Source of the DNA: Begonia masoniana
Taxonomy: Eukaryota; Streptophyta; Magnoliopsida; Cucurbitales; Begoniaceae
NCBI GenBank assembly: GCA_022432975.1
Contig: CM039512.1
Location: 34,531,730 to 34,595,729, forward strand
Length of the DNA stretch: 64,000 bases
Direction of reading: 5' to 3'
Below the pieces are notes generated by a model. It was not told the origin of the DNA. It saw only the letters and a program-made list of their open reading frames with translations, and searched no databases. Every line of letters begins with the position of its first letter. The first letter of the stretch is position 1. The position numbers and the translations under genes are program-made. Shown here in pieces: positions 19,901 through 63,009 of the stretch.

Positions 19901-20156
19901 AAAACTAATAATAATAATAATAATAATTTCTATTAAAACATTAATAACTTGACATTTACCGTTTTGGCCTCCCGTATTTTCGACCATGTCAAATTCCATT
20001 AAATCTCATTCTTAAATTAAAATCTCTGGCTTAATTTCACTAGGACCCGAACTTAAATTAGAAACTTCACTTTTCTTTTAAATTAATTGAACCAACCTAT
20101 TTTATTATTATTTTATTTTCTCTTCAATTTTCCCTAAAAAAATCCCGGGTGTTACA
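16971..20156 (-). mobile_element. 5' LTR of the LARD element
   Basis: 3186 bp, matching 12109-15097 throughout with sparse substitutions. The 197-bp excess is explained mainly by a fourth 190-bp repeat (about 17815-18570) and by a longer (TAA)n tract near 19910. Confidence 0.9.
17815..18570 (+). repeat. 190-bp tandem repeat, 4 copies, in the LARD 5' LTR
   Basis: Same unit as at 12950-13520, with equivalent points at 17852, 18042, 18232 and 18422. One more unit than in the partner LTR. Confidence 0.95.
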
Positions 20157-20709
20157 AAAGATAAAGAAAATGCTGCATGAATTCTGAACTCATACGCATA
20201 GCATGCATGTACATTTACTAGAACTTGCTGAGATTTTTATCTCATAGGTGTCTGTATGGTGTAGGTGATTACGAGGAGACAGGTGTGGATGAGATCCCTC
20301 TACCTGAGGAGTGACGCAGTTGACGGAGGATTGTTGCGGTGGTGTAATGGCGCAGTCGACGCTTATCTGACCTGTGGGGACGTATGTATAGATTTTGGGG
20401 TTTTTAGGATGTTTTGGATTGATGATTGTATAGACATTTTAGGATGTTTGGATCTGGTAGTTGATAGGTTTACGCTTTGAGGTTTTAAACGTTTTGAAAA
20501 CCTGTTTTTATAAACTGCTTGGACGTTTTAACACTGGAGGAAAAGTATAGTTTTAAATATACCCATGCAATTTGTTTTCATAAATTCTGACTACGTTTTA
20601 AGTTAAATGTTTGGACGATTATGAGGTGTTTAGTATGTTAATTGAGGATGAAATTGGAGATGTGTTAAAGTTCATGTGTGCAGGGAATGTGAAAGAAACA
20701 TTGTGTTTT

Positions 20710-20965
20710 GCTCTCTGGAATTTCGGATTCCAGAGAGCAATCTTTACATTCTGATGATGTTTGATGGGGTAAAGGGAGAGGCTACCGAACGCCAAAGGTG
20801 GCTTTCGATCTCCGAATGGCTTAGGCGACTGGGCGCGGGGTTAGGGGCGATTCGCCCCTCCCTTGTTGTGCTTCGGCGATCGATCTCCATAGAATTTGGA
20901 GATCGATCGCCCCTCCCTCCTTTGAAGCCAGCGATCGATCTCCAAATTCTATGGAGATCGATCGC
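20710..20965 (+). repeat. Hairpin cassette in solo LTR 10623-21199
   Basis: Four perfect inverted repeats: 20710-20738 (arms GCTCTCTGGAAT / ATTCCAGAGAGC, loop 5); 20843-20859 (AGGGGCGA / TCGCCCCT, loop 1); 20875-20911 (GGCGATCGATCTCCA / TGGAGATCGATCGCC, loop TAGAATT); 20931-20965 (14-bp arms of the same sequence, loop AATTCTA). The last two hairpins are exact reverse complements of each other. They lie 234-490 bp before the LTR 3' end. Confidence 0.95.
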
Positions 20966-21199
20966 CCCTCCTTTTCTTTGGCAGAATTACGTCTCTGCCC
21001 TCTGTTTGTTTTAATTGTTTTATTAATTGTTTTAATGTTTTCTTTAATTAGTTAAAAAGGTTTGAAAGTTAGATTTCAATTCTGATTTCGATTCTGATTT
21101 CAATCTCAGTTTAGGTTCTGCTTAGAGTTTATTTAAAGTATAAGTATAAAAAAAAATATATATGTACAGGCAATTGGGTACAGTATTAGGGTTGTGACA

Positions 21200-27397: not shown

Positions 27398-27676
27398 CTA
27401 TGCCCTCCTTCCTTCAGCCCCTCACATTTTTGGGACAAATGTCCCTTATGCCCTCCTTCCGTCAGCCGATTTTTTTTATATTTTAAATGTAATTTCTTTT
27501 AATTGTTTTACTCAATTGTTTCAATTTGTTTTGTAAGTTTTCAAGAGTTTTATTTAAATGGTTTCTAAATATGTTCTAAACAATTTTAATAATTTGTTCC
27601 CGTTCAAACGTTACAAAGTTTATAAGGATAAAAAAAATAGCACGGGAAATCAGGAATAGTGTTAAGGGTCGCTACA
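27398..27676 (+). mobile_element. Truncated 5' LTR of element P
   Basis: Matches the last about 260 bp of 32367-34928, ending GGGTCGCTACA. The left edge contains a short duplication (TATGCCCTCCTTCC at about 27399 and 27451), so the exact breakpoint is uncertain. Confidence 0.7.
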
Positions 27677-27693: not shown

Positions 27694-27843
27694 CCCCGGG
27701 TTTTAAAAACGGTTCTGTAGACTGCTCGAGTGCACAGCCACTACGCGGACATCCTTCATCAACTGTAAGTATGTTTATATGTTTTCTTTAAGTTCGATTT
27801 CTTAGAGAGTTTGTTTTAACTTTGATATAGGGATTATATAAAT

Positions 27844-28695
27844 ATGGTGCATCGAGGGAATGATCGAGACGATAGAGACGATACGATAGACACCCTTAAG
27901 GATTTTATTGCCCAACAGTCTCAACATATGGAGCGTCAGGCCCAACAAATGGAGAGACAATCCCAGCAGCTGGGCACCCTAATAGACCGTGAGGGCGTTA
28001 GAGCTCGAGAGACAGCGACTCAGGGTAATCGAGGGATGGAGAGATTTCAGAGGCTCCAACCTCCGATATTCAACGGGCAATCTACGGATCCCTCTTCAGC
28101 CAAGGAGTGGATTCGAACCATGGAGGACATGCTGGCCTATGCAATCATTGAGGACGGAGAGAAGGTTGCATTGGTTAGCTACCACTTAGCACTGGATGCC
28201 CAATTCTGGTGGGATTCTATCAAGGCGACCACTGACATGATGATTATGAGTTGGGAGCATTTCAAGTTGATATTTTACGATAAATACTTCAGCCATATAG
28301 TGCGGGAGGCGAAGATGGTGGAGTTTATGCAATTACGGCAAGTTGGTTCGATTACCGACTATGTGAGGAGAATTGAGGCTTTGTCCCGATTCGCGCCGCA
28401 TCAGGTCAGTGTCAATGAGGACAAGGTACGCAAATTTGTATAGGGGCTTGGCCAAGAAATTCGAAAGATTCTTACGATCTCAGGGGTGCAGAATGTATCC
28501 TACGATGAGATAGTGGCCAGGGCACTGGAGATTGAGGCTGTTAATCAGAGTTCTGCTAGACCAAGGGAGCCAGCTAGAGACTTCTTTCACGAGATCCATC
28601 CTCAGATCAGAAATAAGGGCTGCCAACCGAGAGCACAGCCACAGCAACAACAACAGAGAGGCGTTAAAAGGCCTTTAGAGGGAGGTAATGATTGA
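27844..28695 (+). pseudogene. Element P gag
   Basis: From ATG 27844: a Gln-rich N-terminal coiled-coil-like segment (QQSQHMERQAQQMERQSQQ), then the retrotransposon Gag domain (FWWDSIKATTD, FYDKYFSHIVREAK, FMQLRQVGSITDYVRRIEAL). A TAG at 28441 ends the first frame after 199 residues. The same frame resumes (YDEIVARALEIEA, PREPARDFFHEI) until TGA at 28693. Compared with the open copy in element D, it is colinear, with two nonsense changes. Confidence 0.85.
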
Positions 28696-28728
28696 GGCAA
28701 AGGGAAGCAGGTACAAGGGGCTCCTCAA

Positions 28729-30171
28729 ATGCCGTGGTGCCACAAGTGCCAGAAAGAACACAGTGCCGAGTGCCGAGTGGGCACGAATAGATGTTATAGA
28801 TTTGGAGAAGTTGGCCACTTCATTAAAGACTGCCCGAAGCAGGGCCGTGAGCAATCAGGCACAGACCAGAGGAGGGTTATGCCGAGAATCTTTGCATTTA
28901 TCGAGCCTGGTGATATTGATGATGAGGCTCAGCCTTTCGTGATAGTAGGTACTATTCTGATTTCGGGCGTAGCTGTATTTTCTTTGATAAACATGGGGGC
29001 TACGCACTCTTTTGTTTCCACTGCTTGCGTGTCTGGACTGAAGCTTGTGCCTGAGTTAGCAGAATGCGAATATAGTGTGATGCTATCTTCAGGAGAGCGT
29101 ATGAAGTCAGGTCAAGTCGTCCAGGACAATATTGTCTCAGTTGGGAACTGTACCCTCTATGCTCGCTTGATTGTTTTGGGCATAGAGATCTATGATGTTA
29201 TCTTAGGGATGGACGGGCTATCACAGCACTTTGCCACCATCAATTGTCGATCTGAAATTGTGACGTTTCGGCCCCAGGGTAAAGTCGAGTTTTCTTATCA
29301 GGCGATGAATAGATTAAGTGGATCGCCTATTTCTTATTCCATGAAGATCAACGAGCAGTTTAAAGGTGAGTGCTTTATTTATTTGGCCACAGTAGTTGAT
29401 ATTCAGTTGCTTAGCGGGGTAAAGCCGGGTGACATTCCTATAGTCAGAGAATTCTCTGAGATATTCCTTGACGATCTTCCCGGATTACCGCTGGACAGAG
29501 AGATCGAATTTGTTATTGATGTATATCCTAGCGCTGCGCCAGTGTCTAAGAATCCATATAGATTGGCGCCCGCTGAATTGAGAGAGTTGAAAACTCAGCT
29601 AGAGGAGTTACTGGATAAGGGTTTCATCCGACCCAGTTTTTCACCCTGGGGTACGCCCGTTCTATTTGTCAAGAAGAAAGACGAGACTCTCAGGTTGTGC
29701 GTGGGTTACAGGGAGCTGAATAAGCTCACGGTGAAGAATAAATATCCACTGCCTCGGATAGATGATTTATTTGACCAGCTGCAAGGTGCCCGAGTGTTTT
29801 CCAGGATTGATCTACGCTCAGGTTATTATCAGTTGAAGGTTCGGAAGGAAGATGTTCAGAAAACGGCGTTCCGAACGAGGTACGGAAATTATGAGTTCCT
29901 AGTTATGTCTTTTGGACTTACTAATGCCCCTGCAGCGTTTATGAACTTGATGAACCGTGTATTTAAGGATTATCTGGACAAATTCGTTGTGGTTTTCATC
30001 GACGATATTATAATATATTCTAAGACGAAAGAGGAGCATGAAGAGCAATTGAGGATTGTTCTCGAAATTTTACAACGACACCAGCTTTATCCGAAGTTCT
30101 CTAAATGCGAGTTTTGGCTGGATCGGGTCAGTTTTCTCGACCATATTATATCACAAGAAGGGTTTCTGTAG
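28729..30171 (+). pseudogene. Element P zinc knuckle, protease and reverse transcriptase
   Basis: 480 open codons. The knuckle reads [14 protein letters not shown], so the second Cys is Phe. The protease box is NMGATHSF where element D has DTGATHSF, so the catalytic Asp is lost. ILGMDGL (residues for ILGMDWL) follows. RT has [39 protein letters not shown] and an intact catalytic FIDDI. A small deletion near 30160 shifts the frame, giving a stop at 30169. Confidence 0.9.
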
Positions 30172-30737
30172 ATCCAAGCAAGATTCAGGTGGTCAGAGAT
30201 TGGCCACAGCCTAAAAACGTGCGTGAAGTACGTGGGTTTCTTGGGTTGGCTGGTTACTATCAGAAATTCATAAAGAGATTTTCAAAGATTGCAGTTCCTC
30301 TTTCACGTTTGACTCGGAAGAACGAAAAGTTTATATGGTCGGCTGCTTGTGACAACAGTTTTATGGAGTTGAAACAGAAGTTGACCAAAGCTCCAGTGTT
30401 GACACTACCTGTTGAAGGTGATAAATTTAGTATTTATTGTGATGCATCTGGAGTTGGAATCGATTGTGTATTGATGCAGGAAGGAAAGGTTATTGCGTAT
30501 GCTTCGCGACAGTTGAAGCCGTATGAGCAGAATTATCCTATGCACGACCTGGAGTTAGCAGCCATGGTCTTCGCACTGAAAATATGGAGGCATTATTTAT
30601 ATGGGCTGCAGTGCAAGATATTTCCCGACCACAAAAGCTTGAAGTATTTATTTATGCAAAAGGAGCTTAATATGCGACAGAGAAGGTGGCTACAGTTCGT
30701 CAAAGATTATGATTTCGATATTAAATACCACCCATGA
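30166..30737 (+). pseudogene. Element P RT thumb and RNase H
   Basis: Resumes in another frame with [18 protein letters not shown] and [16 protein letters not shown]. RNase H follows, with [37 protein letters not shown] and DHKSLKYL. It ends at TGA 30735, immediately after KYHP. RNase H acidic residues appear retained. Confidence 0.85.
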
Positions 30738-32327
30738 AAGGCGAACAAGGTCGCTGATGCTTTGAGCCGAATTCCTACTGCGAGTCAGCCTTCACTTGCA
30801 GCGTTGTCAGTTACATTGCGGTCTGAGATTGAGAAGTTTGATGTGGAGATTGTAGCAGAATTGTCCAGTATGCTCACCAACATTTCTCTCAGTCCAACTA
30901 TTCTGGATAAGATACGTGAAGCTCAGCAGAATGATATGGAGTGTGAAGAGCATCGATTGAGCCTGATATCTGGAGATGTATCTGAATTTAACCTGTCAGA
31001 TGATGGTATTCTGAAGTTCAGGCATAGGTGGTACGTGCCTAACGATGAGGATCTAAAGAAGGAGATATTGGCCGAGGCACATTCTTCAGCTTACTCTGCG
31101 CATCCAGGAAGCACTAAAATGTACAGAGATTTAAAGCAACACTTCTGGTGGCCGAACATGAAGAGGGACGTTACGAAATATGTTGAAACATGTTTAGTTT
31201 GTCAACAGGTTAAGGCAGAACACCAGAGGCCGGCCGGAACATTACAGCCACTGCCGATTCTGGAGTGGAAATGGGAGCAGATCTCCATGGATGTTATCGT
31301 GGGACTCCCGAGGACGACGAAGGGTCATGATGGCATCTAGGTGATTGTGGACCGATTGACAAAGTTGACTCACTTCTTATCTGTGAAGATAACGTCGTCT
31401 ATGGATCAGCTCACCGAGCTTTATGTGCAGGAAATTGTTAGATTGCACGGAATACTAGTTTTGATTGTCTCAGATCGAGATCCGAGGTTTACATCAAAGT
31501 TCTGAAAAAGTCTGCACAAAGCTATGGGGACTCAGCTAAATTTTAGCACTGCATTTCATCCTTAGACTGATGATCAGACGGATAGAACAAATCAGATTCT
31601 TGAGGATATGCTCAGAGCTTGTGTGTTGGAATTTCAGGGATCGTGGAGCTAATATTTACCACTGATCGAGTTCTCTTACAACAACAGCTTCTAGGCTACC
31701 ATTGGTATGGCTCCGTACGAGGCTTTGTATGGCCGAAAGTGTAGATCTCTATTATATTGGGACGAAGTTGGTGAAGCCAGTATTGTTTGTCCTGAGATTC
31801 TACAGCAAACGGCAGAGAAGATTGTCGTTATCAGACAGCGTATCGAGATAGCTCAGAGTCGATATAAGAGCTATGCTAACACAAGACAGAGAGAATTGGA
31901 GTTCGAAGAAGGTGATGAGGTTTATTTAAAGGTTTCTTCGTTTAGAGGTGTAATGCGATTTGGAAGGAAAGGTAAGTTGAACCCTCGATATGTGGGACCC
32001 TTCCCTATTCTGAAGAAGATCGGGAAGATGGCATATCGACTACAGCTTCCAGCTTCGATGGAGGGTATCCATGATGTATTTTACGTGTCTATGCTTCAGA
32101 AGTGTCTGCGCGATCCATCGCATGTTGTGGAAGCACGAGAGATCGAAGTACACCCTACCTTGACTTACATGGAGAAGCCAGTGCGTATTTTGGAGTCTTC
32201 GATCAAAGTTTTGCGCAACAAAGAAATCCCGCTAGTCAAAGTCTTATGGCAGAACCACGAGGTGGAAGAAGCTACTTGGGAGCGACAGCAGGATATGATG
32301 GCTAAGTATCCTGAGTTGTTTGTATGA
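30738..32327 (+). pseudogene. Element P integrase and chromodomain-like tail
   Basis: Integrase zinc domain: [18 protein letters not shown] and CLVCQQ, matching the HHCC pattern. The core has ISMDVIVGLP (first Asp) and VSDRDPRF (second Asp). In-frame stops fall at 31338, about 31503, about 31563, about 31649 and about 31693; several look like C/G-to-T/A transitions. The open end (31707-32327) carries [38 protein letters not shown] and the chromodomain-like [14 protein letters not shown]. This tail is typical of Tekay/Del chromoviruses and is thought to steer insertion into heterochromatin. Confidence 0.85.
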
Positions 32328-32366
32328 TCAAATTTTGAGAACAAAATTTAAATAAGGTGGATGGAA

Positions 32367-34928
32367 TATAACACCCAGATTTACGAGATTTTATAATTAT
32401 GTATATATATGGCATTTTTGTTAATATGTCAAATCAAGTCCATTTTGCAAAAAAAAAAGCGTTATTACGATCTTAATAATTAATAAGGATTTTAGAAAAA
32501 TTTCAGAAATTTTAGGAGTTTAACACTAATTTTACGAGTATTACGTTTATCGTAATATAAAGGATACTCTGGTAAAAATAATAAACGTGGTCCGTTTTGC
32601 AAACGGACAGTTTTAATAGAACCTTAGTAATGAGTTGGAGTTATTGGTGAATTAAGAAAATTTGGAGAAGCCGAATCGTTAGACAATTAACGAAACAAGC
32701 GACGAAACAAATAGAAAATCAAAGGAATGACAAAACGGTAATTTACAAAGTCAATATTTTAATTAAAAACAAAACTCTTTCTCTCTTCTCCCTCATTCAC
32801 GATTCTCTGGTTTTCTCTTCTCTCCCCCGCGGTGACATTTTCTTCCTCCGGCGATTTCTCACGCCGACGTCCGATTTCTCTTCTGTTTGTCTTCCGTTCT
32901 TCGTGATTTCTACTCCTCTCGTAACCCTAGGTATGAATCTATGGTTTTAGAGCGTTATAGTTCGGTTTTCGCGAAGTTTTACGGTTAGGATTTTGTTTAG
33001 GTTTTGTTAAAAACATGATTTATGGTTCAAAATCGATGGCTTTACCGTATTTGTGAATATAATGGACGTATTTGGCGTTATTGGATGAAGTTGATTGATT
33101 CGTTGAGAAACATTAGGGTTTGAGAATTTTCGAGGTTTTGGAAAACTCCGTTAATGGAGGTTTTGAGGTGTCGAACGTGAAAGACTCAACGAAATGCATC
33201 AATGTAGTATTCTAGAGTTTAGGAGAATTTCTTTAGTTAAGAGTTTTGAAAGTTTGGACGTTTAATAGTTTAAACGCGTTTTAATGGCGATTATTGTGAA
33301 TTTGCCTTAGGTAAACAACGCTCGTGGACGGAGCTTGAAGTTCAACGTGCACGAGGTAAGTTTTTGTGACTTACTCTGACCGATTGGCCTATACCATATG
33401 TCAAAATCGTCTCGAGGAGCTTTGGTGACGTGTTTGTTTAAATTGCTTTGGTTGGGTAGTTAGTTTTAGTTCTATTATAGGTTATGTTTTTATAGTCTTG
33501 ATGGTATATATGCTGTATGTTTAAATTATGCTATAAATTGTTCATGCATCACAGTTTTGAATTACACATAGAAAACGAATTTTCGCACTATGTTTTAAAG
33601 AAAATGGTGATGTGGCTTAAAAGGGGGCTATTGATCTATTGTGTGGATCGATTAAGGGTCTGTCACAATACCACATGTAATATGAACCGATGTATGTTTA
33701 TGGTCATGCGAGGTGGGGCTCAGGCATGGCTGTGCGTGTTGCAAGCATGTACTCCCCTCCTCTAGGTGGAAAGGGTTGTCCAACCGCAAGATGTGCCCTC
33801 TCCATTTAGGGGGTTGAGATCTCGGTGAACACCTATGTAAAGATAAGAAAATGTTGCATGATTTACGAACTCATATGCACAGCATACATTTGCATTTACG
33901 AAACTTGCTGAGCTTTAGCTCATAGATTATCTGTATGGTGTAGGTGATCTTGACATAGGTGAGGACGAGATCCCTCCACCTGAGGAGTGATGCAGTTGAC
34001 GGAGGATGGCTCGCGGGGATGTGCTGGCGCAGTCGATGCTTAACCTGACCCGTAAGGATGTACGTATGTGTTTTGAGGGTATTAGGATGTTTGGTTCTGG
34101 TTAGCTAATAGAATGATGTATAGATGTTTTGGTAAATTGATTCTATAAAACGTTTTGTTAAGGTTTTTATACCGATTTTTATGAACTGCTTGGTGATTTT
34201 AGCAGGAAGAAATGTTTGGTTTTCAAACAGATCCCTGCAGTTCGTTTTCATGAAAACATATTTCGTTTTAAATGCATCTCGAGATAATTGGGTTTTAAAA
34301 TACGTTGTGAGTCGTTATTTTGGGTGATTGATGAAGTGAGAAATTGATGAGATTTTGAGTGAGTTTATGTTGGAATGTATGGTTGATGTAGGTGGAATTA
34401 TGTTGATAAAATTGTGAAGGGTGTGTTAGGTGTATAGGGATGCAGGGAAGGGAAAGAAAGAAGTAGAAAAAAAGAAGAAAAAAAAAAAAAAAAGAGGAGG
34501 CAAGTCCTCTGAAAAATCCAGAGGACTTGGCGATCGATCGCCTGTGGGGGGCGATCGATCGCCCCTCTTGGTCACGCTCTGGAAGAAATTCCAGAGCGTG
34601 TGCCGAGCAATCACCCGGAGAGGCGATCGCTTGGCAAAAATATATGATCGCCGAAGGGCGATCGATCGCCCCTCACATTTTTGGAACAAATGTCCCTTAT
34701 GCCCTCCTTCCTTCAGCCAATTGTTTTTATGTTTTAAATGTAATTTCTTTTAATTGTTTTACTCAATTGTTTTAATTTGTTTTGTAAGTTTTCAAGAGTT
34801 TTATTTAAATGGTTTCTAAATATGTTCTAAACGATTTTAATAATTTGTTCCCGTTCAAACGTTACAAAGTTTATAAGGATAAAAAAAAATAGCACGAGAA
34901 ATCAGGAATAGTGTTAAGGGTCGCTACA
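32367..34928 (+). mobile_element. 3' LTR of element P (2.56 kb)
   Basis: Begins TATAACACCC (its expected TG start mutated to TA) right after the tract AAGGTGGATGGAA, and ends GGGTCGCTACA. Similar over its length to the solo LTR 10623-21199. It contains a hairpin cassette and an A-run at about 34475-34493. Confidence 0.85.
34501..34671 (+). repeat. Hairpin cassette in LTR 32367-34928
   Basis: Five perfect inverted repeats: 34501-34529 (CAAGTCCTCTG / CAGAGGACTTG, loop 7); 34529-34542 (palindrome GGCGATCGATCGCC); 34548-34565 (18-bp palindrome around GCGATCGATCGC); 34573-34600 (CACGCTCTGGAA / TTCCAGAGCGTG, loop GAAA); 34656-34671 (palindrome GGGCGATCGATCGCCC). All lie 257-428 bp before the LTR end. 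Confidence 0.95.
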
Positions 34929-36931: not shown

Positions 36932-36999
36932 AATCAATTAATCAATAAAGAAAACAATTAATTAAAAACATTTTTTTTTTTTATAAAGTGGCCTGAGCT

Positions 37000-37069
37000 G
37001 GTGGCGATTGCTCGCCACAAAACTGGCGAGCAATCGCCACCAGGCGATTGCTCCCAGCGAGCAATCGCC
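37000..37069 (-). repeat. Hairpin cassette in LTR 36782-42066
   Basis: 37000-37041: 18-bp perfect arms containing GGCGATTGCTCGCC, loop CAAAAC. 37043-37069: 11-bp arms GGCGATTGCTC / GAGCAATCGCC, loop 5. A weaker 8-bp pair (TCGCCCAA / TTGGGCGA) follows. The cassette lies 218-287 bp before the LTR end and about 30 bp from the minisatellite. Confidence 0.95.
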
Positions 37070-37101
37070 CAAAGCGATTGCCCCTTGGGCGATTTACAGG
37101 G

Positions 37102-40100
37102 GAGAAACATACGTCTTGCCCCGTGAGAAACATACGTCTTGCCCCGTGAGAAACATACGTCTTGCCCCGTGAGAAACATACGTCTTGCCCCGTGAGAAAC
37201 ATACGTCTTGCCCCGTGAGAAACATACGTCTTGCCCCGTGAGAAACATACGTCTTGCCCCGTGAGAAACATACGTCTTGCCCCGTGAGAAACATACGTCT
37301 TGCCCCGTGAGAAACATACGTCTTGCCCCGTGAGAAACATACGTCTTGCCCCGTGAGAAACATACGTCTTGCCCCGTGAGAAACATACGTCTTGCCCCGT
37401 GAGAAACATACGTCTTGCCCCGTGAGAAACATACGTCTTGCCCCGTGAGAAACATACGTCTTGCCCCGTGAGAAACATACGTCTTGCCCCGTGAGAAACA
37501 TACGTCTTGCCCCGTGAGAAACATACGTCTTGCCCCGTGAGAAACATACGTCTTGCCCCGTGAGAAACATACGTCTTGCCCCGTGAGAAACATACGTCTT
37601 GCCCCGTGAGAAACATACGTCTTGCCCCGTGAGAAACATACGTCTTGCCCCGTGAGAAACATACGTCTTGCCCCGTGAGAAACATACGTCTTGCCCCGTG
37701 AGAAACATACGTCTTGCCCCGTGAGAAACATACGTCTTGCCCCGTGAGAAACATACGTCTTGCCCCGTGAGAAACATACGTCTTGCCCCGTGAGAAACAT
37801 ACGTCTTGCCCCGTGAGAAACATACGTCTTGCCCCGTGAGAAACATACGTCTTGCCCCGTGAGAAACATACGTCTTGCCCCGTGAGAAACATACGTCTTG
37901 CCCCGTGAGAAACATACGTCTTGCCCCGTGAGAAACATACGTCTTGCCCCGTGAGAAACATACGTCTTGCCCCGTGAGAAACATACGTCTTGCCCCGTGA
38001 GAAACATACGTCTTGCCCCGTGAGAAACATACGTCTTGCCCCGTGAGAAACATACGTCTTGCCCCGTGAGAAACATACGTCTTGCCCCGTGAGAAACATA
38101 CGTCTTGCCCCGTGAGAAACATACGTCTTGCCCCGTGAGAAACATACGTCTTGCCCCGTGAGAAACATACGTCTTGCCCCGTGAGAAACATACGTCTTGC
38201 CCCGTGAGAAACATACGTCTTGCCCCGTGAGAAACATACGTCTTGCCCCGTGAGAAACATACGTCTTGCCCCGTGAGAAACATACGTCTTGCCCCGTGAG
38301 AAACATACGTCTTGCCCCGTGAGAAACATACGTCTTGCCCCGTGAGAAACATACGTCTTGCCCCGTGAGAAACATACGTCTTGCCCCGTGAGAAACATAC
38401 GTCTTGCCCCGTGAGAAACATACGTCTTGCCCCGTGAGAAACATACGTCTTGCCCCGTGAGAAACATACGTCTTGCCCCGTGAGAAACATACGTCTTGCC
38501 CCGTGAGAAACATACGTCTTGCCCCGTGAGAAACATACGTCTTGCCCCGTGAGAAACATACGTCTTGCCCCGTGAGAAACATACGTCTTGCCCCGTGAGA
38601 AACATACGTCTTGCCCCGTGAGAAACATACGTCTTGCCCCGTGAGAAACATACGTCTTGCCCCGTGAGAAACATACGTCTTGCCCCGTGAGAAACATACG
38701 TCTTGCCCCGTGAGAAACATACGTCTTGCCCCGTGAGAAACATACGTCTTGCCCCGTGAGAAACATACGTCTTGCCCCGTGAGAAACATACGTCTTGCCC
38801 CGTGAGAAACATACGTCTTGCCCCGTGAGAAACATACGTCTTGCCCCGTGAGAAACATACGTCTTGCCCCGTGAGAAACATACGTCTTGCCCCGTGAGAA
38901 ACATACGTCTTGCCCCGTGAGAAACATACGTCTTGCCCCGTGAGAAACATACGTCTTGCCCCGTGAGAAACATACGTCTTGCCCCGTGAGAAACATACGT
39001 CTTGCCCCGTGAGAAACATACGTCTTGCCCCGTGAGAAACATACGTCTTGCCCCGTGAGAAACATACGTCTTGCCCCGTGAGAAACATACGTCTTGCCCC
39101 GTGAGAAACATACGTCTTGCCCCGTGAGAAACATACGTCTTGCCCCGTGAGAAACATACGTCTTGCCCCGTGAGAAACATACGTCTTGCCCCGTGAGAAA
39201 CATACGTCTTGCCCCGTGAGAAACATACGTCTTGCCCCGTGAGAAACATACGTCTTGCCCCGTGAGAAACATACGTCTTGCCCCGTGAGAAACATACGTC
39301 TTGCCCCGTGAGAAACATACGTCTTGCCCCGTGAGAAACATACGTCTTGCCCCGTGAGAAACATACGTCTTGCCCCGTGAGAAACATACGTCTTGCCCCG
39401 TGAGAAACATACGTCTTGCCCCGTGAGAAACATACGTCTTGCCCCGTGAGAAACATACGTCTTGCCCCGTGAGAAACATACGTCTTGCCCCGTGAGAAAC
39501 ATACGTCTTGCCCCGTGAGAAACATACGTCTTGCCCCGTGAGAAACATACGTCTTGCCCCGTGAGAAACATACGTCTTGCCCCGTGAGAAACATACGTCT
39601 TGCCCCGTGAGAAACATACGTCTTGCCCCGTGAGAAACATACGTCTTGCCCCGTGAGAAACATACGTCTTGCCCCGTGAGAAACATACGTCTTGCCCCGT
39701 GAGAAACATACGTCTTGCCCCGTGAGAAACATACGTCTTGCCCCGTGAGAAACATACGTCTTGCCCCGTGAGAAACATACGTCTTGCCCCGTGAGAAACA
39801 TACGTCTTGCCCCGTGAGAAACATACGTCTTGCCCCGTGAGAAACATACGTCTTGCCCCGTGAGAAACATACGTCTTGCCCCGTGAGAAACATACGTCTT
39901 GCCCCGTGAGAAACATACGTCTTGCCCCGTGAGAAACATACGTCTTGCCCCGTGAGAAACATACGTCTTGCCCCGTGAGAAACATACGTCTTGCCCCGTG
40001 AGAAACATACGTCTTGCCCCGTGAGAAACATACGTCTTGCCCCGTGAGAAACATACGTCTTGCCCCGTGAGAAACATACGTCTTGCCCCGTGAGAAACAT

Positions 40101-44133: not shown

Positions 44134-44280
44134 CTTGGCGAATTGTCGCCAAGCCAGGCGATTCAATCGCCTCCCTCTGGAGAAATCCAGAGGGGATGGC
44201 GATTGCTTGCCACAAACTGTGGCGAGCAATCGCCACAGGCTGGGGCGATTATTCGCCCCATTTATGGGCGAATAATCGCC
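44134..44280 (+). repeat. Hairpin cassette in the outer LTR of 36365-44490
   Basis: 44134-44153 (CTTGGCGA / TCGCCAAG); 44156-44172 (AGGCGATT / AATCGCCT); 44173-44194 (CCCTCTGGA / TCCAGAGGG, loop GAAA); 44197-44235 (17-bp arms with GGCGATTGCTTGCCAC, one wobble mismatch); 44244-44280 (15-bp arms GGCGATTATTCGCCC / GGGCGAATAATCGCC). They lie 210-356 bp before the LTR end. Confidence 0.95.
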
Positions 44281-44490
44281 TCCCTTTTTATTTATTAATT
44301 AATTGTTTAATTAATTTAAGTTTTAATTAAATTAATTTAGTTTTTATTTAATTTGTTTTAAAGGTTAGAATTCAATTCCGATTTCGATTCTGGTTTCGAT
44401 TTCGGTTTAGTTCCTGCTTAGAGTTTAGTTAAAGATATTATGATAAAAAAAAATAGTACGGAAATTGGGTACAGTATTAGGGTCGTTACA

Positions 44491-52487: not shown

Positions 52488-53248
52488 TATGAATAAGGAA
52501 AGATGTTTTACGAAACGAAACCGTTTTATAAATGTCATGCATATAGGTAATGTTATGTTTAGCACGCTCCTTACTAAGCATTAGGCTTAATGTAGTTATT
52601 GTATGATGTAGGTGACGAGAACGAAGGTGAGGAACCACCTTACGATGATCAAGTGTAGCAGTCGATGGGCGGAGCTCGGGACAGCGGAGCGTGTTTTGGC
52701 AGGATTGATTGTCTAACGGTTAGAAGTTTTGAGAGATTTTGGGGAAATGTTTGGGATTTATGATGAAATGTATGAACTTTGGTATGATTTGGGATGTTAT
52801 AGGGAAATTGATGGATTGTTAATACATTTAGATACGCTTTAGGGTGTTTGGAGATCGTATAGTGTTTTGGATGTTTTGGTGTTTTCTGACAGGGAGGATA
52901 TGTTAAACTTTTAAATAGAACCACGCGGTTCGCTTTTATAAGAATTTGTTTATGTTTAAAGAGAATTGTGTCGGTTGAGAGTGTTCGAGTAAATGTTATG
53001 GTTGGAGAATATTTGTGATGATTGTGAAAGTTTTGGGTGAGAAGGGAGAAGAAATTATAGAGGGTTGTGTGTTATGTGCTTGGTTATGTATGTGAGGTGT
53101 TAGGTGTGGAAGAGAAGAAAAGAAATAGAAGTGGGAGAAGGGTGAGAGTGTGTGTGAGTCGTGCGCAGGGCAAAAGAGAAAGGGCACAAGAGAAAGAAAA
53201 GAATCCAGAGAGTTTGGCGTTCGAGCGCGGGTTTGATGGCGCCGGGTC

Positions 53249-53359
53249 GCAGACTTCTCTGGTTTTCCAGAGAAGACTGCGTTCGGGCGCAGGAAGGGCT
53301 GCGCCCGAACGCCGGCGCCCAACAAAGGGGCGCCCAGTCGGCCATTGCCTGGCCGACTG
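53249..53359 (+). repeat. Hairpin cassette in solo LTR 50126-53588
   Basis: 53249-53280 (14-bp arms around CTTCTCTGG / CCAGAGAAG, one mismatch, loop TTTT); 53279-53312 (13-bp perfect arms GCGTTCGGGCGCA / TGCGCCCGAACGC, loop 8); 53335-53359 (10-bp perfect arms CAGTCGGCCA / TGGCCGACTG, loop 5). Same location and CTCTGG/CCAGAG theme as in other LTRs, but with a GC-rich core. Confidence 0.93.
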
Positions 53360-53588
53360 TGCGGCCATGATGGGGGCGCTCGGGTGCCTGTTCTTAGGCG
53401 TTCGTGCGCCCCTCAATTGTTTGGGACAAAGTCCCTTTTTGCCCTCCCTTTCTATGGCCGATAGTTTAAGTTGTTTTAACAGTTTTAAATATGGTTTTAT
53501 ATGTTTTAAGTTTAGCTTAAATTATAAAAAAAAAAAAAAAAAAAAAAAGAAGAGAGAAAATGTGACATCACGGGTACGGGTCGTGACA

Positions 53589-55740: not shown

Positions 55741-56000
55741 TGTAACACCCCTAATACCGTACCCGTATTTCCCGTATTATTATTATTATTTTTTTTTATA
55801 CTTAAATAAACTCTAAGCGGAACCTAAACCGAAATCGAAATCAGGATCGAAATCGGAATTGAAATCTAACCTTGAAATCATTTAAAACAAACACTTAATA
55901 ACTAAATAGCATTTAAACTATTTAATAAAAATAACTTAAAACAAATCAGAAAAAGGGGAGGGCAAAACGGTCCGCCCTGAAAACAAATAAGGCAGCGACC

Positions 56001-56320
56001 AGTCGCTGCTACATGCAGCGACTGTGCGCTGCATCGCTGAGCCGTGGCAGCGATCGATCTCTGCGCTGCAGCAGAGATCGATCGCTGCATTACATTATGC
56101 AACAGCGATCGATCTCTGCTGCACAGCAGAGATCGATCGCTGCATTGCTTTATAGCAACAGCGATCGATCTCTGCTCTGCAGCAGAGATCGATCGCTGCA
56201 TTGCTTCACAGCAAGCAGCGATCCAGTTCCCTCACACCTGCTTCCAGTTCCTTCAAACCCTTCAACACTCTATGCATCAAACACTTCAATTAGCTCTCTG
56301 GAATCCGATTTCCAGAGAGC
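56001..56320 (-). repeat. Hairpin cassette in element D LTR, with 56-bp hairpin triplication
   Basis: 56001-56023 (AGTCGCTGC / GCAGCGACT); 56047-56088 (18-bp arms), 56103-56142 (19-bp arms) and 56159-56198 (18-bp arms), all with CAGCGATCGATCTCTGC, spaced exactly 56 bp apart; 56293-56320 (GCTCTCTGGAA / TTCCAGAGAGC, loop 6). The last hairpin is almost the same as 20710-20738. In element orientation it precedes the variable hairpins, which end about 260 bp before the LTR end. Confidence 0.95.
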
Positions 56321-56865
56321 AAAACTTCTATTGTTTTACACCTAAAATCACAATAAACTTATAACTCATCCATCCAATTAAACGTATTCTAAACTCAATT
56401 AGCTTACAGCAGACTTTGCGAAGTCCAACTGCGTGGATAGCTCTAAAAACCGAGCTATCCGTAACAACCTAAACCAATCAAAACATTTTCAAAACATTCG
56501 GCAAACAGTTTAAACCAAAGCGTTTTACATACAATTACCAAAATGTTATCTAACCTCTATCCAGAACCAAGCACCCTAATATGTTCTATACAGTTTATCA
56601 TCAATCCAAAATGTCTCAAAAACCCCCAAAACCTTTACGTACATCCCCCACGGGTCAAAACGCGCCTCGACTGCCCAGCGCACTCCCACGGGCCATCATC
56701 CATCAACTGCCTCAGACATCAGAAGGAGAAACGTCGTCCCCACCTGGATCTACGTCACCTACAACGTCACCCACACCATACAGACATCTATGAGATAATT
56801 AAATCTCAGTAAGCTTCGTAAATGCAGATGCATGCGTGCGTGTGCCATTCAGAAAACATGCTCAG

Positions 56866-56906: not shown

Positions 56907-58383
56907 TTTCTATTACGTCGCAGACAGATTGTTACCGAGATATCAGCCCTCTAAATGGAAAGGATACATTCTGCGGTCGAACTACCACTTTCCACCTAGA
57001 GGAGGGGGGTACATGCTCACAAACCCTACAGCCATGCCTGAGCCCCACCTCGCGTAACCAGATACAGATTTACGTAGATTAATTACAGAGGTTCATTTCT
57101 TTTCTTAAAACACGTGCAGAAATTTATTTTCATGACATTGGAAATACGTGATGCATGAACAGTTAATAAGCAGAAAGTAAACAATCAACATACATACCAT
57201 CAAGACAAATAAACGAAACCTATAGATAACTAACCTAACTACCCAACCAAAACGTATAAGCAAACAAATCTCCAATGATCCTCGACGCTACATCGAAGTA
57301 CGGTGTAGACCAATTGGTCAAAGTAAGTCACGAGAACTTACCTCGAGCGCGCTGAATCTCGAGCTTTGTCCACGAGAGTCGTGGGTATGAAGAAAACATG
57401 ATATTCGCAGTTAAAACCAATTCAAACTATTAACGTCCAAATTTCAAACCTTGACTAAGGAACTTTTCCTAAATTCCTCACTTAGCTAATCAAAGCATTT
57501 AGAACGCCAATTAATGCTCGATAATTCGAAATCTCAATTAACGTACTTTTCCAAAAATTCCTAATTTTTAACCTTTTTACGATTTGATTTAACTTCGTCC
57601 AATAACGTCAAATACGTCCAATATATACTTAATCATGGCTAACCTATTAATTACGAACCCTAAATCTCATTTTTAACGAAAATCGATCGAAACCCTAATT
57701 ACCTAAAACGCCGTAAACGTCGAAATAAAAGCTCTAAGAACGTAGATGCATACCTAGGATAGCGAGAGGAGGAGAAACCGTGAAGGTTCGAAGTCGATCG
57801 GAGGTCGGAATGATGAGAAATCGTCGCGGCCGAGAGAGAAGTCGCGAGGGAGAAAGAGAGAATTTTACTCTCTGGAAATCGTAAGAAGCAGAGAAGAAAA
57901 GAGAAGTGAGGGAGAAGAGAGGTGATTTGTTATTTTATAAAATTTGGTTTGCAAATTACCATTTTGCCCTTAACTCTTGTTTCGTTCTTCGTTTCGTTAA
58001 TCGGCTAACGATTCGGATTCTCGAAAACTCCATATTTTGCCAATAATTTCCATTCATTACCAGGGCTCTATTAAAACTGTCCGTTCGTAATTTGGACCTC
58101 GTTTACTATTTTTACGAAAACATCCTTTATATTACGAGAAATGTATTTACTCGGAATATAGCGTCTAAACTCCGAAAATTCTCATAATTTCCTTAAAATT
58201 CCTATTAATCGTTAAAGTCGTAATGACGCTTTCCGTTTGAGAAACTGACTTGATTTGACATATTTACCAAGAATGCCACATATATATAAAAAATACGAAT
58301 ATAATATATTAAAACCAAAAATCCGTACAAGCCGGATATTTCATTCCACCCTCCTTATTCAGAATTTTGTCCACAAAATTAAA

Positions 58384-60240
58384 TCATGCAAACAAATCAG
58401 GATACTTAGTCATCATATCCTGCTGTCGTTCCCACGTAGCCTCTTCCACCTCGTGGTTCCGCCATAGGACTTTGACTAGCGGAATCTCTTTGTTGCGTAG
58501 CACCTTGATGGAAGTCTCCAAAATACGTACCGGTCTCACCTCATAGCTCAAGGTAGGCTGTACCTCGATCTCTGTAGCCTCCACGATATGCGATGGATCA
58601 CGTAGGCACCTCCGAAGCATCGACACGTGAAATACGTCGTGGATACCCTCCATAGAAGCCGGAAGCTGCAGTCTATACGCCAACTTCCCGATCCTCTTCA
58701 GAATAGGAAAGGGCCCCACATAACGAGGGTTTAGCTTACCCCTCCTTCCAAATCTTGCAACGCCTTTGAACGGAGAAACTTTAAGGTAGACTTCGTCACC
58801 TTCTTCAAACTCTAGCTCTCTCCGTCTAGTGTCAGCATAGCTCTTCTGTCTGCTCTGAGCTACCTCGATACGCTGTCGGATAATGGCAATCTTCTCTGCC
58901 GTCTGCTGTAGAATCTCTGGACCAACGATGCTGGCCTCGCCAACCTCGTCCCAATATAACGGAGACCTACACTTGCGACCATACAGCGCCTCATATGGAG
59001 CCATGCCAATCGTAGCCTGGAAGCTGTTGTTGTACGAGAACTCAATCAGAGGTAAATAGCGGCTCCACGAGCCCTGAAACTCCAGCACACAAGCTCTGAG
59101 CATATCCTCAAGAATCTGATTCGTCCTCTCTGTCTGACCATCAGTCTGAGGATGGAACGCTGTGCTGAAATTAAGCTGAGTCCCCATAGCTCTGTGTAAA
59201 CTCTTCCAGAACTTTGACGTGAATCTCGGATCTCTGTCGGAGACAATAGAAACTGGCACGCCGTGCAATCTGACAATCTCCTGTACATAGAGCTCGGCGA
59301 GCTGATCCATAGACGATGTCATCTTCACAGGCAAAAAGTGAGCCGACTTTGTCAATCGGTCCACAATAATCCAAATGCCGTCAAGGCCTCTCGTAGTCCT
59401 CGGGAGTCCCACAATGAAATCCATAGAGATCTGCTCCCATTTCCACTCCCGAATCGGCAGTGGCTGTAATGTTCCAGCTGGCCTCTGGTGCTCCGCCTTA
59501 ACCTGTTGACAAACTAAACAGGTTTCCACATACTTGGCGACCTCTCCTTTCATACCTGGCCACCAGAAATGTTGCTTCAAATCCCGGTACATCTTAGTAC
59601 TGCCCGGGTGTATAGAATATGCCGAAGAATGTGCCTCTGCCAATATCTCCTTCCTCAGATCCTCGTCACTAGGCACGTACCACCTATGCCTGAACTTCAG
59701 AATGCCATCATCTGATAAGTGAAAATCCGACGAGTCTCCCAATATCATACTAGATCGAAGCTCCATACACTCCGAATCATTCTGCTGAGCCTCGCGTACA
59801 CGATCTAGAATGGTCGGCCTGAGAGAAATACTAGTGAGCATGCTGGACAACTCTGCCACTATCTCCACGTCGAATCTCTCAATCTCAGACCGCAGCGTAA
59901 CTGACATCGCTGCTAATGAAGGCTGACTCGCAGAAGGCACTCTACTCAGAGCATCAGCAACCTTGTTCGCCTTTCCTGGGTGGTACTTGATATCAAAATC
60001 ATAGTCTTTGACAAATTCAAGCCACCTGCGTTGCCGCATATTCAGCTCCTTCTGCGTAAATAGATACTTTAATCTCTTGTGGTCAGAAAATATCTCGCAC
60101 TGCTGCCCATATAAATAATGTCTCCATATCTTCAGTGCGAAGACCACAGCTGCCAACTCTAGGTCGTGCGTGGGGTAATTCTGCTCGTACAGCTTCAGCT
60201 GCCGAGAAGCATACGCGATAACTCTCCCCTCCTGCACCAA
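58384..60240 (-). CDS. Element D RNase H C-half, integrase and chromodomain-like tail
   Basis: A 618-codon open frame on the minus strand, from codons inside RNase H to a TGA at 58384. Residues 1-65 are RNase H ([27 protein letters not shown]). Residues 204-244 form the integrase HHCC zinc domain (H204, H211, C241, C244). The core has D274 (SMDFIVG), D335 (VSDRDPRF) and E371 (QTERTN) with 35 residues between the last two, so the DD35E triad is complete. Residues 480-545 hold the C-terminal domain ([27 protein letters not shown]). Residues 568-605 hold a chromodomain-like motif ([14 protein letters not shown]). This is the best-preserved integrase in the window, but the first Met is not a real start: it is the 3' end of pol. 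Confidence 0.9.
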
Positions 60241-61114
60241 TACACAACCGAGTCAAACTCCAGATGCATCACAATAAACACTAAACCTGTCGCCCTCAAC
60301 AGGTAGCGCCAATACTGGAGCGGTGGTCAGTCTCTGCTTTAACTCCATAAAACCATCATCACAAGCAGACGACCATAAAAATCTCTCGTTCTTCCGAGTC
60401 AATCGTGTAAGAGGAAGTGCGATCTTTCGTGAATCCCTCTATAAACTTCCGGTAATAACCGGCCAATCCGAGAAATCCACGCACCTCACGTACGTTCTTC
60501 GGCTGTGGCCAATCTCTGACCACCTGTATTTTGCTCGGATCCACAGAAACTCCATCCTGTGATATAATATGGCCCAGAAAACTCACTCTGTCAAGCCAGA
60601 ACTCGCACTTAGAAAACTTTGGATACAGCTGGCGCTCACATAGAATACTCAGAACAATCCTCAGATGCTCCTCGTGTTCTTCCTTCGTCTTTGAGTAAAC
60701 TAGGATATCGTCGATGAAAACCACCACGAACCTGTCCAGATACTCCTTGAAAACACGGTTCATCAAATCCATGAACGCTGCAGGGGCATTAGTGAGTCCA
60801 AAAGACATAACAAGGAACTCATAGTGCCCATACCTCGTTCGGAACGCCGTCTTCGGTATATCATCCTTCCGAACCTTCAGCTGATTGTAACCCGAGCGCA
60901 GGTCGATCCTGGAAAATACTCGGGCACCCTGTAGCTGATCAAATAGGTCATCAATCCGAGGCAGTGGATACTTATTCTTCACTGTCAATTTGTTCAGCTC
61001 TCTATAATCAATGCACATTCTGAGAGTCCCGTCTTTCTTCTTAACAAACAGAACGGGCGCACCCCAGGGTTAAACGCTGGACCGAATAAAACCCTTCTCC
61101 AGTAACTCGTCAAG
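60241..61114 (-). pseudogene. Element D reverse transcriptase and RNase H N-half
   Basis: Minus strand. Stops at about 61112 and 61070 break the RT N terminus, just before and inside the FIRSSV-PWGAP segment. From 61018 the frame is open: [49 protein letters not shown], catalytic FIDDILVYS (both Asp retained), [34 protein letters not shown] one-base change near 60425 shifts the frame. RNase H N-half (YCDASGV) lies at about 60265-60290, followed by an in-frame stop near 60256. RT would copy element RNA. Confidence 0.88.
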
Positions 61115-62848
61115 CTAAGTCCTCAACTCTCTCAACTCAGCTGGTGCCAACCGGTAAGGGTTCTTGAACCTTGGCGCAGAGTTTGGATAGACATCAATAG
61201 TGAATTCGATCTCCCGGTCTGGTGGTAAACCGGGAAGGTCATCAAGGAATATGCCAGAGAACTCTCTAACAATAGGAATGTCGCTCGGCTTCACTCCGCT
61301 GAGTAACTGAATATCAAAAACTGAGGCCAAATAAATAGAGCACGCACCTTTGAACTGCTCGTTGACCATCATGGAATAAGAAATAGGCGAGCTACTCAGT
61401 CGGTTCATCGCCTGATAAGAAAACTCGGCCCTATCCGGGGGTCGGAAGGTCACAATCCCGGATCGACAATCGATGGTGGCGGAGTGCTGTGCTAGCCAGT
61501 CCATCCCTAAAATAAGATCATACCGCTCTATGCCCATAACTATCAAACGAGCATAAAGGGTAATATCCCCCACTGAGATGACGTTGCCTTGGAGAATGCG
61601 TTCTGACTGCATAAGCTCTCCTGAAGGCAGCATCACACTATACTCGACCCCAGCTAACTCAGACTTTAGCCCCAATCTAGTCATGCATGCAGTCGATACG
61701 AAGGAGTGTGTAGCTCCAGTATCCATCAAAGTAAATACAGCAACGCCCATAAGTAAGATAGTACCTGCCATCACAGCAGGCTGAGCATCATCATCAACAT
61801 CCTCAGGCTCGATAAAGGCGAAAACCCTGGGTGTAACCCTCCTCTGATCACCGCCTGGTAGGTCTCGAGCAGGATGCGGGCAATCTCTAACAAAATGGCC
61901 GACTCCGCCACATCTGTAGCATTTATTAGAGCCAACCCGGCACTCTCCACTATGCTCCCTCTGGCACAAGGGGCACCATGGCATCTGAGAAGCCCCCTGT
62001 ATCTGCTTCCCCTTACCCCGATCATTACCTCCCTCGAGAGGTCTCTTCACACCCCGCTGCTGTGGCTGGGGCGGTGCTCTGGGCTGCAAACCTCGGCCCT
62101 GCGTCTGAGGTCGAATCTCGCGAAAGAAGCCCTTAGCTGGCTCCCTCGGTCTAATGCAAGTGGCTCTGGCAGCCTCAATATCCAGAGCTCTGGCTGTAAT
62201 ATCAGAATATGGCGCATCAATAATACCTGAGACTACCACGTGCATTCGAATCTCCGGATTAAGTCCCTCCATAAAGTGGTGCACCTTCTCCTCATTATCG
62301 CTGACAAGGCGAGGTGCGAATCGTGATAAAGCCTCAAATCTCCGAATATAATCTGCAACTGAACCAGTCTGCTTCAGCTGCATAAACTCGTTCCTCTTGG
62401 CCACTCTCACCATGCGGCTGAAATACTTATCGTAGAATAAAAACTTGAACCGATCCCAAGTCATAACTGACACGTCCGTCGTGGCCTTGATCGAATCCCA
62501 CCAGAAGCGAGCGTCCAAAGCTAAGTGAAATGTAGCATAAGCGACCCTGCTCCCGTTGGCAACCTCTTCGTAAGCCAACATGTCCTCCATAACCCTGATC
62601 CATTCCTCGGCACGTGTCGGATCCGATGACTGGCCGTCGAATACTGGAGGCCGCAGACCTTGGAACCTCTGCATACCCTGATTACTGGGGACTACCAGTT
62701 CCTGAGCCCTCTGATTCTCTCGCTGGTTATCTCGATTCACTAAATCCGTGATCTGTTGCGCTTGCCGGTCCATATGCTGAGACTGGCGATCTAACAACTC
62801 CGTAAGACGATCCATCGCGTCATCTCTCGGATCCCTTCCTCGAGTCAT
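61115..62848 (-). CDS. Element D gag-protease polyprotein (577 aa, open)
   Basis: I chose the start at 62848 (MTRGRDPRDD) because it aligns with the gag start of element P; the frame is open 50 codons further upstream without family similarity. Residues 18-45 are a Gln-rich coiled-coil-like segment. Residues 60-230 form the Gag domain (FWWDSIKATTDVSVMTW, FMQLKQTGSVADYIRRFEAL). Residues 292-303 form a CPLC...H...C finger, and residues 310-323 are the intact knuckle CYRCGGVGHFVRDC. The protease has DTGATHSF (Asp 376) and ILGMDWL (446-452). The start of RT (PGLPPDREIEFTIDVYP) follows before a stop at 61115. Gag and protease would assemble and mature particles; every key motif I can check is intact. 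Confidence 0.9.
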   Translation of the reverse strand: MTRGRDPRDDAMDRLTELLDRQSQHMDRQAQQITDLVNRDNQRENQRAQELVVPSNQGMQRFQGLRPPVFDGQSSDPTRAEEWIRVMEDMLAYEEVANGSRVAYATFHLALDARFWWDSIKATTDVSVMTWDRFKFLFYDKYFSRMVRVAKRNEFMQLKQTGSVADYIRRFEALSRFAPRLVSDNEEKVHHFMEGLNPEIRMHVVVSGIIDAPYSDITARALDIEAARATCIRPREPAKGFFREIRPQTQGRGLQPRAPPQPQQRGVKRPLEGGNDRGKGKQIQGASQMPWCPLCQREHSGECRVGSNKCYRCGGVGHFVRDCPHPARDLPGGDQRRVTPRVFAFIEPEDVDDDAQPAVMAGTILLMGVAVFTLMDTGATHSFVSTACMTRLGLKSELAGVEYSVMLPSGELMQSERILQGNVISVGDITLYARLIVMGIERYDLILGMDWLAQHSATIDCRSGIVTFRPPDRAEFSYQAMNRLSSSPISYSMMVNEQFKGACSIYLASVFDIQLLSGVKPSDIPIVREFSGIFLDDLPGLPPDREIEFTIDVYPNSAPRFKNPYRLAPAELRELRT

Positions 62849-63009
62849 ATTTATAAAACTCCTATAAAATTTAAAAAAAAAAACAAGAACTCCTAAGAAA
62901 CTGAAATCGAACAAAGCAGTAAACAAACTTAAAGTTGATGTAGGATGTCCGCGTAGTGGCTGCGCAGTCGAGCAGTCTACAGAATCAATTTTAAACAAAC
63001 TTACAGTTG

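Follow-up and report, generated by a model that had tools for sequence, protein, structure and literature searches.

The long terminal repeats (LTRs) of Sirevirus elements, which are Ty1/copia retrotransposons, contain palindromic repeated motifs with a proposed, unproven regulatory role (PMC2829016). Here, we analyzed a stretch of 64,000 nucleotides from Begonia masoniana (contig CM039512.1, positions 34,531,730 to 34,595,729; termed the window), in which LTRs of Ty3/gypsy elements carry a cassette of near-perfect hairpins before their 3' end, among them the cassette at 34501..34677 on the plus strand that is the subject of this study. As in Sirevirus, multiple palindromic motifs are clustered in the LTR and differ between elements, and 80 of 100 Begonia LTRs contained such hairpins, 252 in total. 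The Sirevirus cluster lies upstream of a TATA-like motif, and here TATA[AT]A is enriched 40-80 bp before the LTR end, where it is possibly part of a poly(A) signal. However, the Begonia elements are Ty3/gypsy by their domains and not Ty1/copia, and compared with the available part of the Sirevirus report, the arms are longer and have many cores rather than a CGG-CCG core (the commonest listed arms are CTCTGG and GCGATCGATC, without a formal motif test), a CTCTGG hairpin is conserved across families, and inverted loops occur. The Sirevirus cluster forms a CpG island, and the cluster described here is GC-rich but has an observed/expected CpG ratio of 0.96-1.11, below that of the tail that follows it. 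A previous reading of the window by a model that saw only the sequence (the sequence-only reading) had not known of any LTR element described as having such a pattern, a statement that cannot be upheld in view of the Sirevirus motifs.

Template switching homogenises the arms of inverted repeats and inverts the spacer between them (PMC8604942; PMC8794818). Perfect arms, arm homogenisation and inversion of the spacer, here the loop, are shared by the Begonia hairpins. However, the cases treated in the available parts of these studies concern DNA replication in ribosomal RNA (rRNA), microRNA and yeast genes, and loop inversions in rRNA are described as rare in PMC8794818, whereas the present hairpins lie in a retrotransposon LTR, which is copied by reverse transcription. 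In maize, microRNA-like secondary structure is likewise concentrated in LTRs, but with a peak in Copia elements and, as far as that report is available, generally not in Ty3 elements (PMC10760457), in which it is found here. A conserved LTR architecture with R-region stem-loops (PMC3601003) shares the stem-loop-related conservation, while a multi-hairpin hypervariable array is not mentioned in the accessible part of that paper, and PMC6911290, in its accessible part, is concerned with insertion targets and not with hairpins within LTRs. In the titles and abstract openings of the open-licence papers listed in the searches, no description of such arrays in Ty3 LTRs was found. As far as this literature shows, the Ty3 setting, the cross-family CTCTGG hairpin, and the loop inversions are new.

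Results

Hairpin cassettes occupy a fixed zone of the LTR

The pattern CTCTGG with CCAGAG 3-30 bases downstream was found 24,392 times in the genome (795 Mb, 308 contigs), compared to 822 times for a reversed-pattern control. For a sample that was blind to hairpins, a 22-base LTR end motif was used, which was present at 5,643 places genome-wide and for which the control yielded 0. One hundred LTR ends were taken, all from the first 20 Mb of contig 1 (91 are L025-L115, and nine lie inside ten-kb loci), and the 700 bp before each end were examined. At least one near-perfect hairpin was present in 80 and at least two in 68 of the 100 LTRs. The total of 252 hairpins compares with a mean of 2.7 (about 1-3) when the letters were shuffled inside 100-bp windows. 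When each cluster of LTRs linked at 85% identity or more over at least 450 bp was represented by a single LTR (n = 76), 60 representatives contained a hairpin. From the last hairpin to the LTR end, the median distance was 257 bp (interquartile range 232-282), and none of the 252 hairpins fell into the last 150 bp of the LTR. Similarly, in 16 of 20 ten-kb loci, namely those with an identified LTR end, 52 hairpins were found in the 16 kb made up by the last 1 kb before the ends and 19 in the other 144 kb, these loci having been picked by a CTCTGG hairpin. Together, these results show that the cassette is a real and widespread part of LTRs in this Ty3/gypsy group. The view that position and architecture are conserved while the sequence changes is thus upheld beyond the window, with hairpins neither placed at random nor limited to a few copies, but concentrated in one zone of the LTR and subject to fast turnover.

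In the window itself, a scan that required arms of 10 or more, tolerated no more than one mismatch, and accepted loops of 3-20 yielded 16 hairpins, 14 of which lie inside six clusters, whereas four dinucleotide-shuffled windows yielded 1, 0, 0, and 0. The remaining two are a single hairpin, which a nested element carries in each of its two LTR-like copies. All six clusters had been recognized in the sequence-only reading and were recovered at the same place or within a few tens of bases. Their distances to the LTR 3' end, which it had put at about 200-580 bp, were measured as about 210-580 bp, with LTR ends, read from the sequence, at 21199, 34928, ~36782, 44490, ~53588, and 55741. CTCTGG/CCAGAG arms were confirmed in five of the six clusters (20712, 34576, 44174, 53256, and 56295, zero-based), cluster 36998-37094 being the exception; a further pair at 62163 (zero-based) is element-internal and belongs to no cluster. 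A supposed decayed cluster at 45799-45855 could be verified only in part. A CTCTAGA...TCCAGAG remnant and two CGATCGATCG words are present, but the sequence up to 46000 contains no LTR tail after them, and therefore an LTR is not confirmed there.

The cassette at 34501..34677 (LTR B, plus strand) is composed of a AAGTCCTCTG hairpin, a GGCGATCGATCGCC hairpin (34529-34563), a CACGCTCTGGAA hairpin (34573-34600), and additional GATCGATC repeats, and an AT-rich tail extends from its edge to the LTR 3' end (34678..34928, plus strand). LTR A (plus strand) contains a CTCTGG hairpin with 14-bp perfect arms (20708..20740) and two adjacent variable hairpins with equal arms and the mirror-image loops TAGAATT and AATTCTA, which jointly form a 36-bp perfect inverted repeat (20875..20966). 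The cassette of LTR C (36998..37094, minus strand) consists of two hairpins, lacks the CTCTGG hairpin, and is bordered by a 23-bp tandem array. GATTGCTC and GATTATTC hairpins accompany the CTCTGG hairpin in LTR D (44134..44282, plus strand), and a GTTCGGGC core does so in LTR E (53216..53363, plus strand). LTR F (56000..56323, minus strand) has a CTCTGG hairpin at 56290-56323, three GATCGATCTCTGC units at 56047-56198, and a GTCGCTGC hairpin at 56000-56024.

The LTRs share a common order of parts. From 5' to 3', usually one or two CTCTGG hairpins are followed by a GC-rich stretch, in which as many as a dozen hairpins are based on GCGATCGATC, GGGCGCTGC, GGCGATTATTCGCC, and words of this kind, and then by a tail that is AT-rich (22-30% GC), about 200 bp long, and ends the LTR; in several families, a GGGCAGAAT hairpin stands between the GC-rich stretch and the tail. 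The GC content at -450 to -250 was 48-57%, compared to 22-44% elsewhere in the 700 bp, and the observed/expected CpG ratio in this zone (0.96-1.11) was lower than that of the tail (1.94-2.40). Among the 76 cluster representatives, TATA/ATAAAA-like motifs clustered downstream of the cassette, at about 40-80 bp from the LTR end. The count of TATA[AT]A includes overlapping matches, and TATATA words also occur upstream of the cassette in several loci. These tail motifs could belong to a promoter, to a poly(A) signal, or to both. All segments of an LTR occur at least once in the genomic RNA of a retrotransposon, and the cassette is therefore transcribed and copied by reverse transcriptase.

A conserved hairpin stands beside variable ones

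A hairpin anchored by CTGG..CCAG was present in 74 of the 100 LTRs. At its six outer pairs, 2, 1, 4, 3, 9, and 9 changes between Watson-Crick types were counted by parsimony, 28 in all, on a quick tree built from 200-bp LTR tails, whose errors could inflate the numbers. When pairs 1-6 were compared with the expectation for independent arms, pairs 5 and 6 were of the Watson-Crick type in 71 and 67 of 91 distinct hairpins (from 62 LTRs), as opposed to 46.9 and 37.8 expected, with relatedness not removed. The orientation of the loop was mostly kept: AATCGGATT and AAATCGGATT together accounted for 21 of 76 CTCTGG-type hairpins, and their reverse complements were absent from that list. Among the distinct CTCTGG-hairpin loops, G exceeded C in 19 and C exceeded G in 5. 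Conservation of the CTCTGG hairpin thus extends across families, and its outer pairs covary.

The other hairpins behave differently. Among the 252 hairpins there were 160 distinct 5' arms, the commonest listed types being CTCTGG and GCGATCGATC. Hairpins that could be aligned between nearest relatives without gaps were few, 39 in 37 pairs of LTRs with 80-90% flank identity and 35 in 17 pairs with 90-98.5%, all hairpin types pooled. Multiplication of units was evident in family F, for which 131 hits were obtained and in which L023 has 12 hairpins in 1 kb, while others have two to four units, and in L088, with about seven repeated units in the part that was read. In both L088 (contig 1, 17.41 Mb) and L023 (contig 1, 4.88 Mb), the units form tandem arrays within the LTR that resemble young satellites. 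It appears from these comparisons that variable hairpins evolve mainly through gain, loss, and duplication of units. The compensatory arm changes at issue in the sequence-only reading were thus found in the conserved CTCTGG hairpin, but were rare in hairpins that could be aligned between relatives.

Loop orientation was compared in 92 of 113 LTRs, with 21 overlapping or mate rows left out; the 113 included 13 from the window or from loci selected by a hairpin. In 21 pairs of hairpins with the same arms within one LTR, the loops were exactly direct in 8 and exactly inverted in 5. Redrawing the loops from a pool of the same length yielded a mean of 0.22 inverted pairs and a maximum of 3, such that 5 were reached in none of 500 draws. 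The clearest inversion is that at 20875-20966 in the window, with its 7-base loop. An inversion between relatives was seen in family F, in which the loop reads GCAC in L117 and GTGC in the window copy (winF), the two LTRs being 95.6% identical over 450 aligned bases. Three further comparisons were not used as evidence. A looser flip count, with both orientations for 8 of 176 loop cores, contained at least two cases from overlapping stretches, a looser count of 13 direct, 11 inverted, and 1 tie included partial matches and related rows, and the matching in a comparison of hairpin retention between relatives was unreliable at unequal loop lengths.

Strand and folding tests

Selection could act on the hairpins as structures of the genomic RNA, serving packaging, dimerisation, export, or 3'-end folding, with pairing kept by compensatory substitution. 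The cassette necessarily occurs in this RNA at least once, the CTCTGG hairpin covaries (28 pair-type changes; pairs 5 and 6 above independence), and folding is very strong, with a mean z of -13.8 relative to shuffles (60 of the 76 representatives, 10 shuffles each), a value that is inflated as the stretches had been cut to hairpins. Before composition was taken into account, the sense strand was the more stable one in 43 of 60 cassettes. However, when the difference between the shuffles was subtracted, it was better in 17 and worse in 43, and the sense advantage is thus only as large as composition predicts and gives no clear signature of RNA-strand selection. Wobble pairs led to a similar result. 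Stems that allowed both kinds of mismatch contained 96 G.U and 68 A.C (p = 0.035 before background), whereas three rounds of shuffles gave 40 and 24. In stems with at most one mismatch, the unique mismatches were 35 G.U and 32 A.C. A first count of 224 unique G.U versus 75 A.C was set aside because it let in wobble-rich stems from G/T-rich flanks; under a 25% limit the numbers were 65 and 51, with the shuffles also leaning toward G.U. In summary, none of the three tests for RNA-strand selection was convincing, and the simple form of selection on RNA pairing that had been suggested from the sequence was not supported.

LTRs that lack the cassette argue against the proposal of an indispensable packaging or dimerisation signal. 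L025, L051, and L067 are cassette-free, 98.7-99.6% identical to one another, and located at three sites with different flanks. Such a lineage can apparently spread without the cassette, perhaps aided by other elements. L054/L055 had been considered as a young hairpin-free LTR pair, but their identical flanks indicate a duplication, so that the hairpin-free case rests on L025, L051, and L067. Of the 20 LTRs scored as hairpin-free, L033 and L038 have CTCTGG hairpins just under the cut-off, and some others look like fragments or simple repeats. The loops of the variable hairpins are not conserved and at times inverted, which likewise speaks against selection on RNA structure. Overall, we regard such selection as an unlikely source of the array.

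Hairpin arms and the remaining LTR decay alike

To compare arms after insertion, 14 LTR pairs of single elements were used, in which one mate adjoins the primer site and the other has a different flank. Four of 18 pair rows had been dropped: L054/L055 and L099/L100 are segmental duplicates with a shared downstream flank, L099/L101 are not mates, and L059/L060 are only 90% alike and perhaps an old pair, with seven arm differences and one base pair altered on both sides, but not to Watson-Crick. In the 14 pairs, the mates differed at 18 of about 1,506 arm bases and at 101 of about 7,529 other bases; the arm total is approximate, since every arm position in one mate was included regardless of alignment. 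Not a single arm change in these pairs restored a Watson-Crick pair. The arms thus decay in step with the remainder of the LTR, and palindrome conversion after insertion was rejected. The sequence-only reading had offered palindrome-driven conversion as one form of a homogenising process; a process acting on inverted repeats is supported, whereas its action after insertion is not. Because the arms are neither visibly protected nor repaired in the genome, they most likely become perfect while the element is copied or earlier.

Elements and repeats around the cassettes

The internal part of the element whose 3' LTR bears cassette B extends over 27702..33604 on the plus strand and contains pieces of gag, protease, reverse transcriptase, integrase H2C2, and SH3_Tf2-1. 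A related internal part at 57100..62995 on the minus strand, whose downstream LTR bears cassette F, shows a weak C-terminal match to a chromodomain (Chromo), which at E = 0.0076 does not reach the curated cut-off. The protein domains around clusters B and F (Retrotrans_gag, RVP_2, reverse transcriptase, RNase H, integrase H2C2, and SH3_Tf2-1) make up a Ty3-type gag-pol, and by this domain content the elements are Ty3/gypsy; the cassette-bearing group is perhaps a chromovirus, the sequence-only reading having labelled its LTRs Tekay-type. Among the best 120 of 7,830 protein matches, the closest named ones were to eudicots, with up to 65% for Cucumis melo, and those without a name reached 66%. 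At gathering scores, Rfam had no match in the window.

The 5' LTR of the 27.7-33.6 kb element (27417-27676) matches its 3' LTR (34668-34928) solely from the 3' edge of the cassette onward, and no LTR match was reported upstream of 27417. Because the match is limited to sequence beyond this edge, a rearrangement seems to have broken the 5' LTR at the hairpin cassette. The nested element at 12109-20156 has LTR-like copies of about 3 kb with 190-bp tandem repeats, and each copy contains one 15-bp hairpin (14797-14830 and 19849-19882), located about 270-300 bp upstream of the 3' end of the copy, which is the relative place of the cassettes. Minisatellite arrays were found at 37102-40883 (23 bp x 164), adjoining cassette C, and at 51416-52482 (22 bp x about 45), and stretches that include both match in inverted orientation (39682-42066 with 52482-50126, 74%). 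The segments 54857-55851 and 63006-64000 are direct copies with 99.5% identity, and both contain the 3' end of the LTR together with the same flank downstream of it. As identical sequence follows the LTR ends at 55741 and ~63889, the copies look like tandem duplicates. In L116, a matching copy of the cassette outside the window, one hairpin arm of cassette F is missing. L116 was dropped as a candidate for the 5' LTR of cassette F's element, because the identical flank after both LTR ends points to tandem duplication.

Discussion

We consider template switching to be the likeliest source of the variable hairpins, with a probability of roughly 0.5. Switching between the arms of an inverted repeat during copying of the element would generate hairpins and keep them perfect, as with each jump one arm would be corrected from the other and the loop could flip, and unequal copying would raise the number of units. 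Reverse transcription would be the likeliest step, because every part of the LTR is present in the RNA template. The zone as a whole would have a cis-regulatory function in promoter activity and/or 3'-end control, most likely so by analogy to the role proposed for the LTR palindromes of Sirevirus. Under such a function, the array would usually be retained while its exact sequence would be free to vary.

Several observations weigh against this explanation. Of 42 changed pairs in aligned hairpins at 80-90% flank identity, 38 were single and 4 double Watson-Crick changes, and of 18 at 90-98.5%, 16 were single and 2 other double changes, with 0 double Watson-Crick changes. Most changes were therefore single and unpaired, and direct support for paired correction is thin. 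Four of the five exact inversions have loops of 4 bases, and because L111 and L022 look alike by eye, about four of the five are independent. Both loop orientations were present for 2 of 39 CTCTGG loop cores versus 18 of 117 in variable hairpins, a comparison for which no chance level was computed, and strand symmetry is incomplete in the variable loops (G>C in 56, C>G in 33, p = 0.019). The uncorrected stability advantage of the sense strand in 43 of 60 cassettes also belongs here. Lastly, no reverse-transcription event was observed, and switching could take place in host DNA replication.

The palindromes might instead be arrays of binding sites for dimeric DNA-binding proteins, acting as enhancer or insulator and selected as double-stranded DNA, a possibility that has also been raised for the repeated motifs of Sirevirus. 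This would be in accord with the lack of a clear strand preference, with palindromic cores such as CGATCGATCG within the arms, and with the position of the cassette upstream of the TATA-like motifs that peak 40-80 bp before the LTR end, comparable to the palindromic motifs upstream of the TATA box in Sirevirus (PMC2829016). However, it requires a short shared core, which is difficult to reconcile with 160 distinct 5' arms among 252 hairpins, and alone it leaves the perfect or near-perfect arms of 14-40 bp and the inverted loops unexplained. As a full account of the array it is thus rather improbable. A role of the hairpins in feeding or evading small-RNA silencing, as long inverted repeats that are Dicer substrates or decoys, is very unlikely: some inverted repeats have arms of 36-41 nt, and according to a report on maize (PMC10760457), structured LTR regions of Copia elements show a correlation with small RNAs, but many single hairpins have arms of only about 10-20 bp. 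Repeated insertion of fold-back elements or miniature inverted-repeat transposable elements into LTRs would agree with discrete units that can repeat in tandem, but is extremely unlikely given their concentration in one LTR zone (52 in 16 kb versus 19 in 144 kb) instead of a spread over the elements.

Template switching could be extended to a broader model, which we put forward tentatively and at somewhat less than even odds. In this model, the zone would be a self-renewing palindrome locus, in which the element's own copying would repeatedly make, flip, multiply, and perfect inverted repeats, leading to fast sequence change within a constant architecture; beside it, the conserved CTCTGG hairpin would be a so far unnamed cis-acting element.

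How hairpins originate and become perfect, by stepwise compensation or by template switching in one step, is an open question. Because a single genome offers thousands of LTR copies that can be dated and share one hairpin zone, birth, flipping, and decay of hairpins are directly countable. The present results are also a warning that near-perfect, variable, and position-conserved hairpins need not imply selection on RNA structure. The extension of the palindrome region known from Sirevirus to Ty3 elements suggests that plant retrotransposons unrelated to one another converge on palindromic arrays in the regulatory zones of their LTRs. If the self-renewing locus proves to be true, the thousands of dated LTR copies in Begonia masoniana would hold a natural record of how hairpins arise and disappear.

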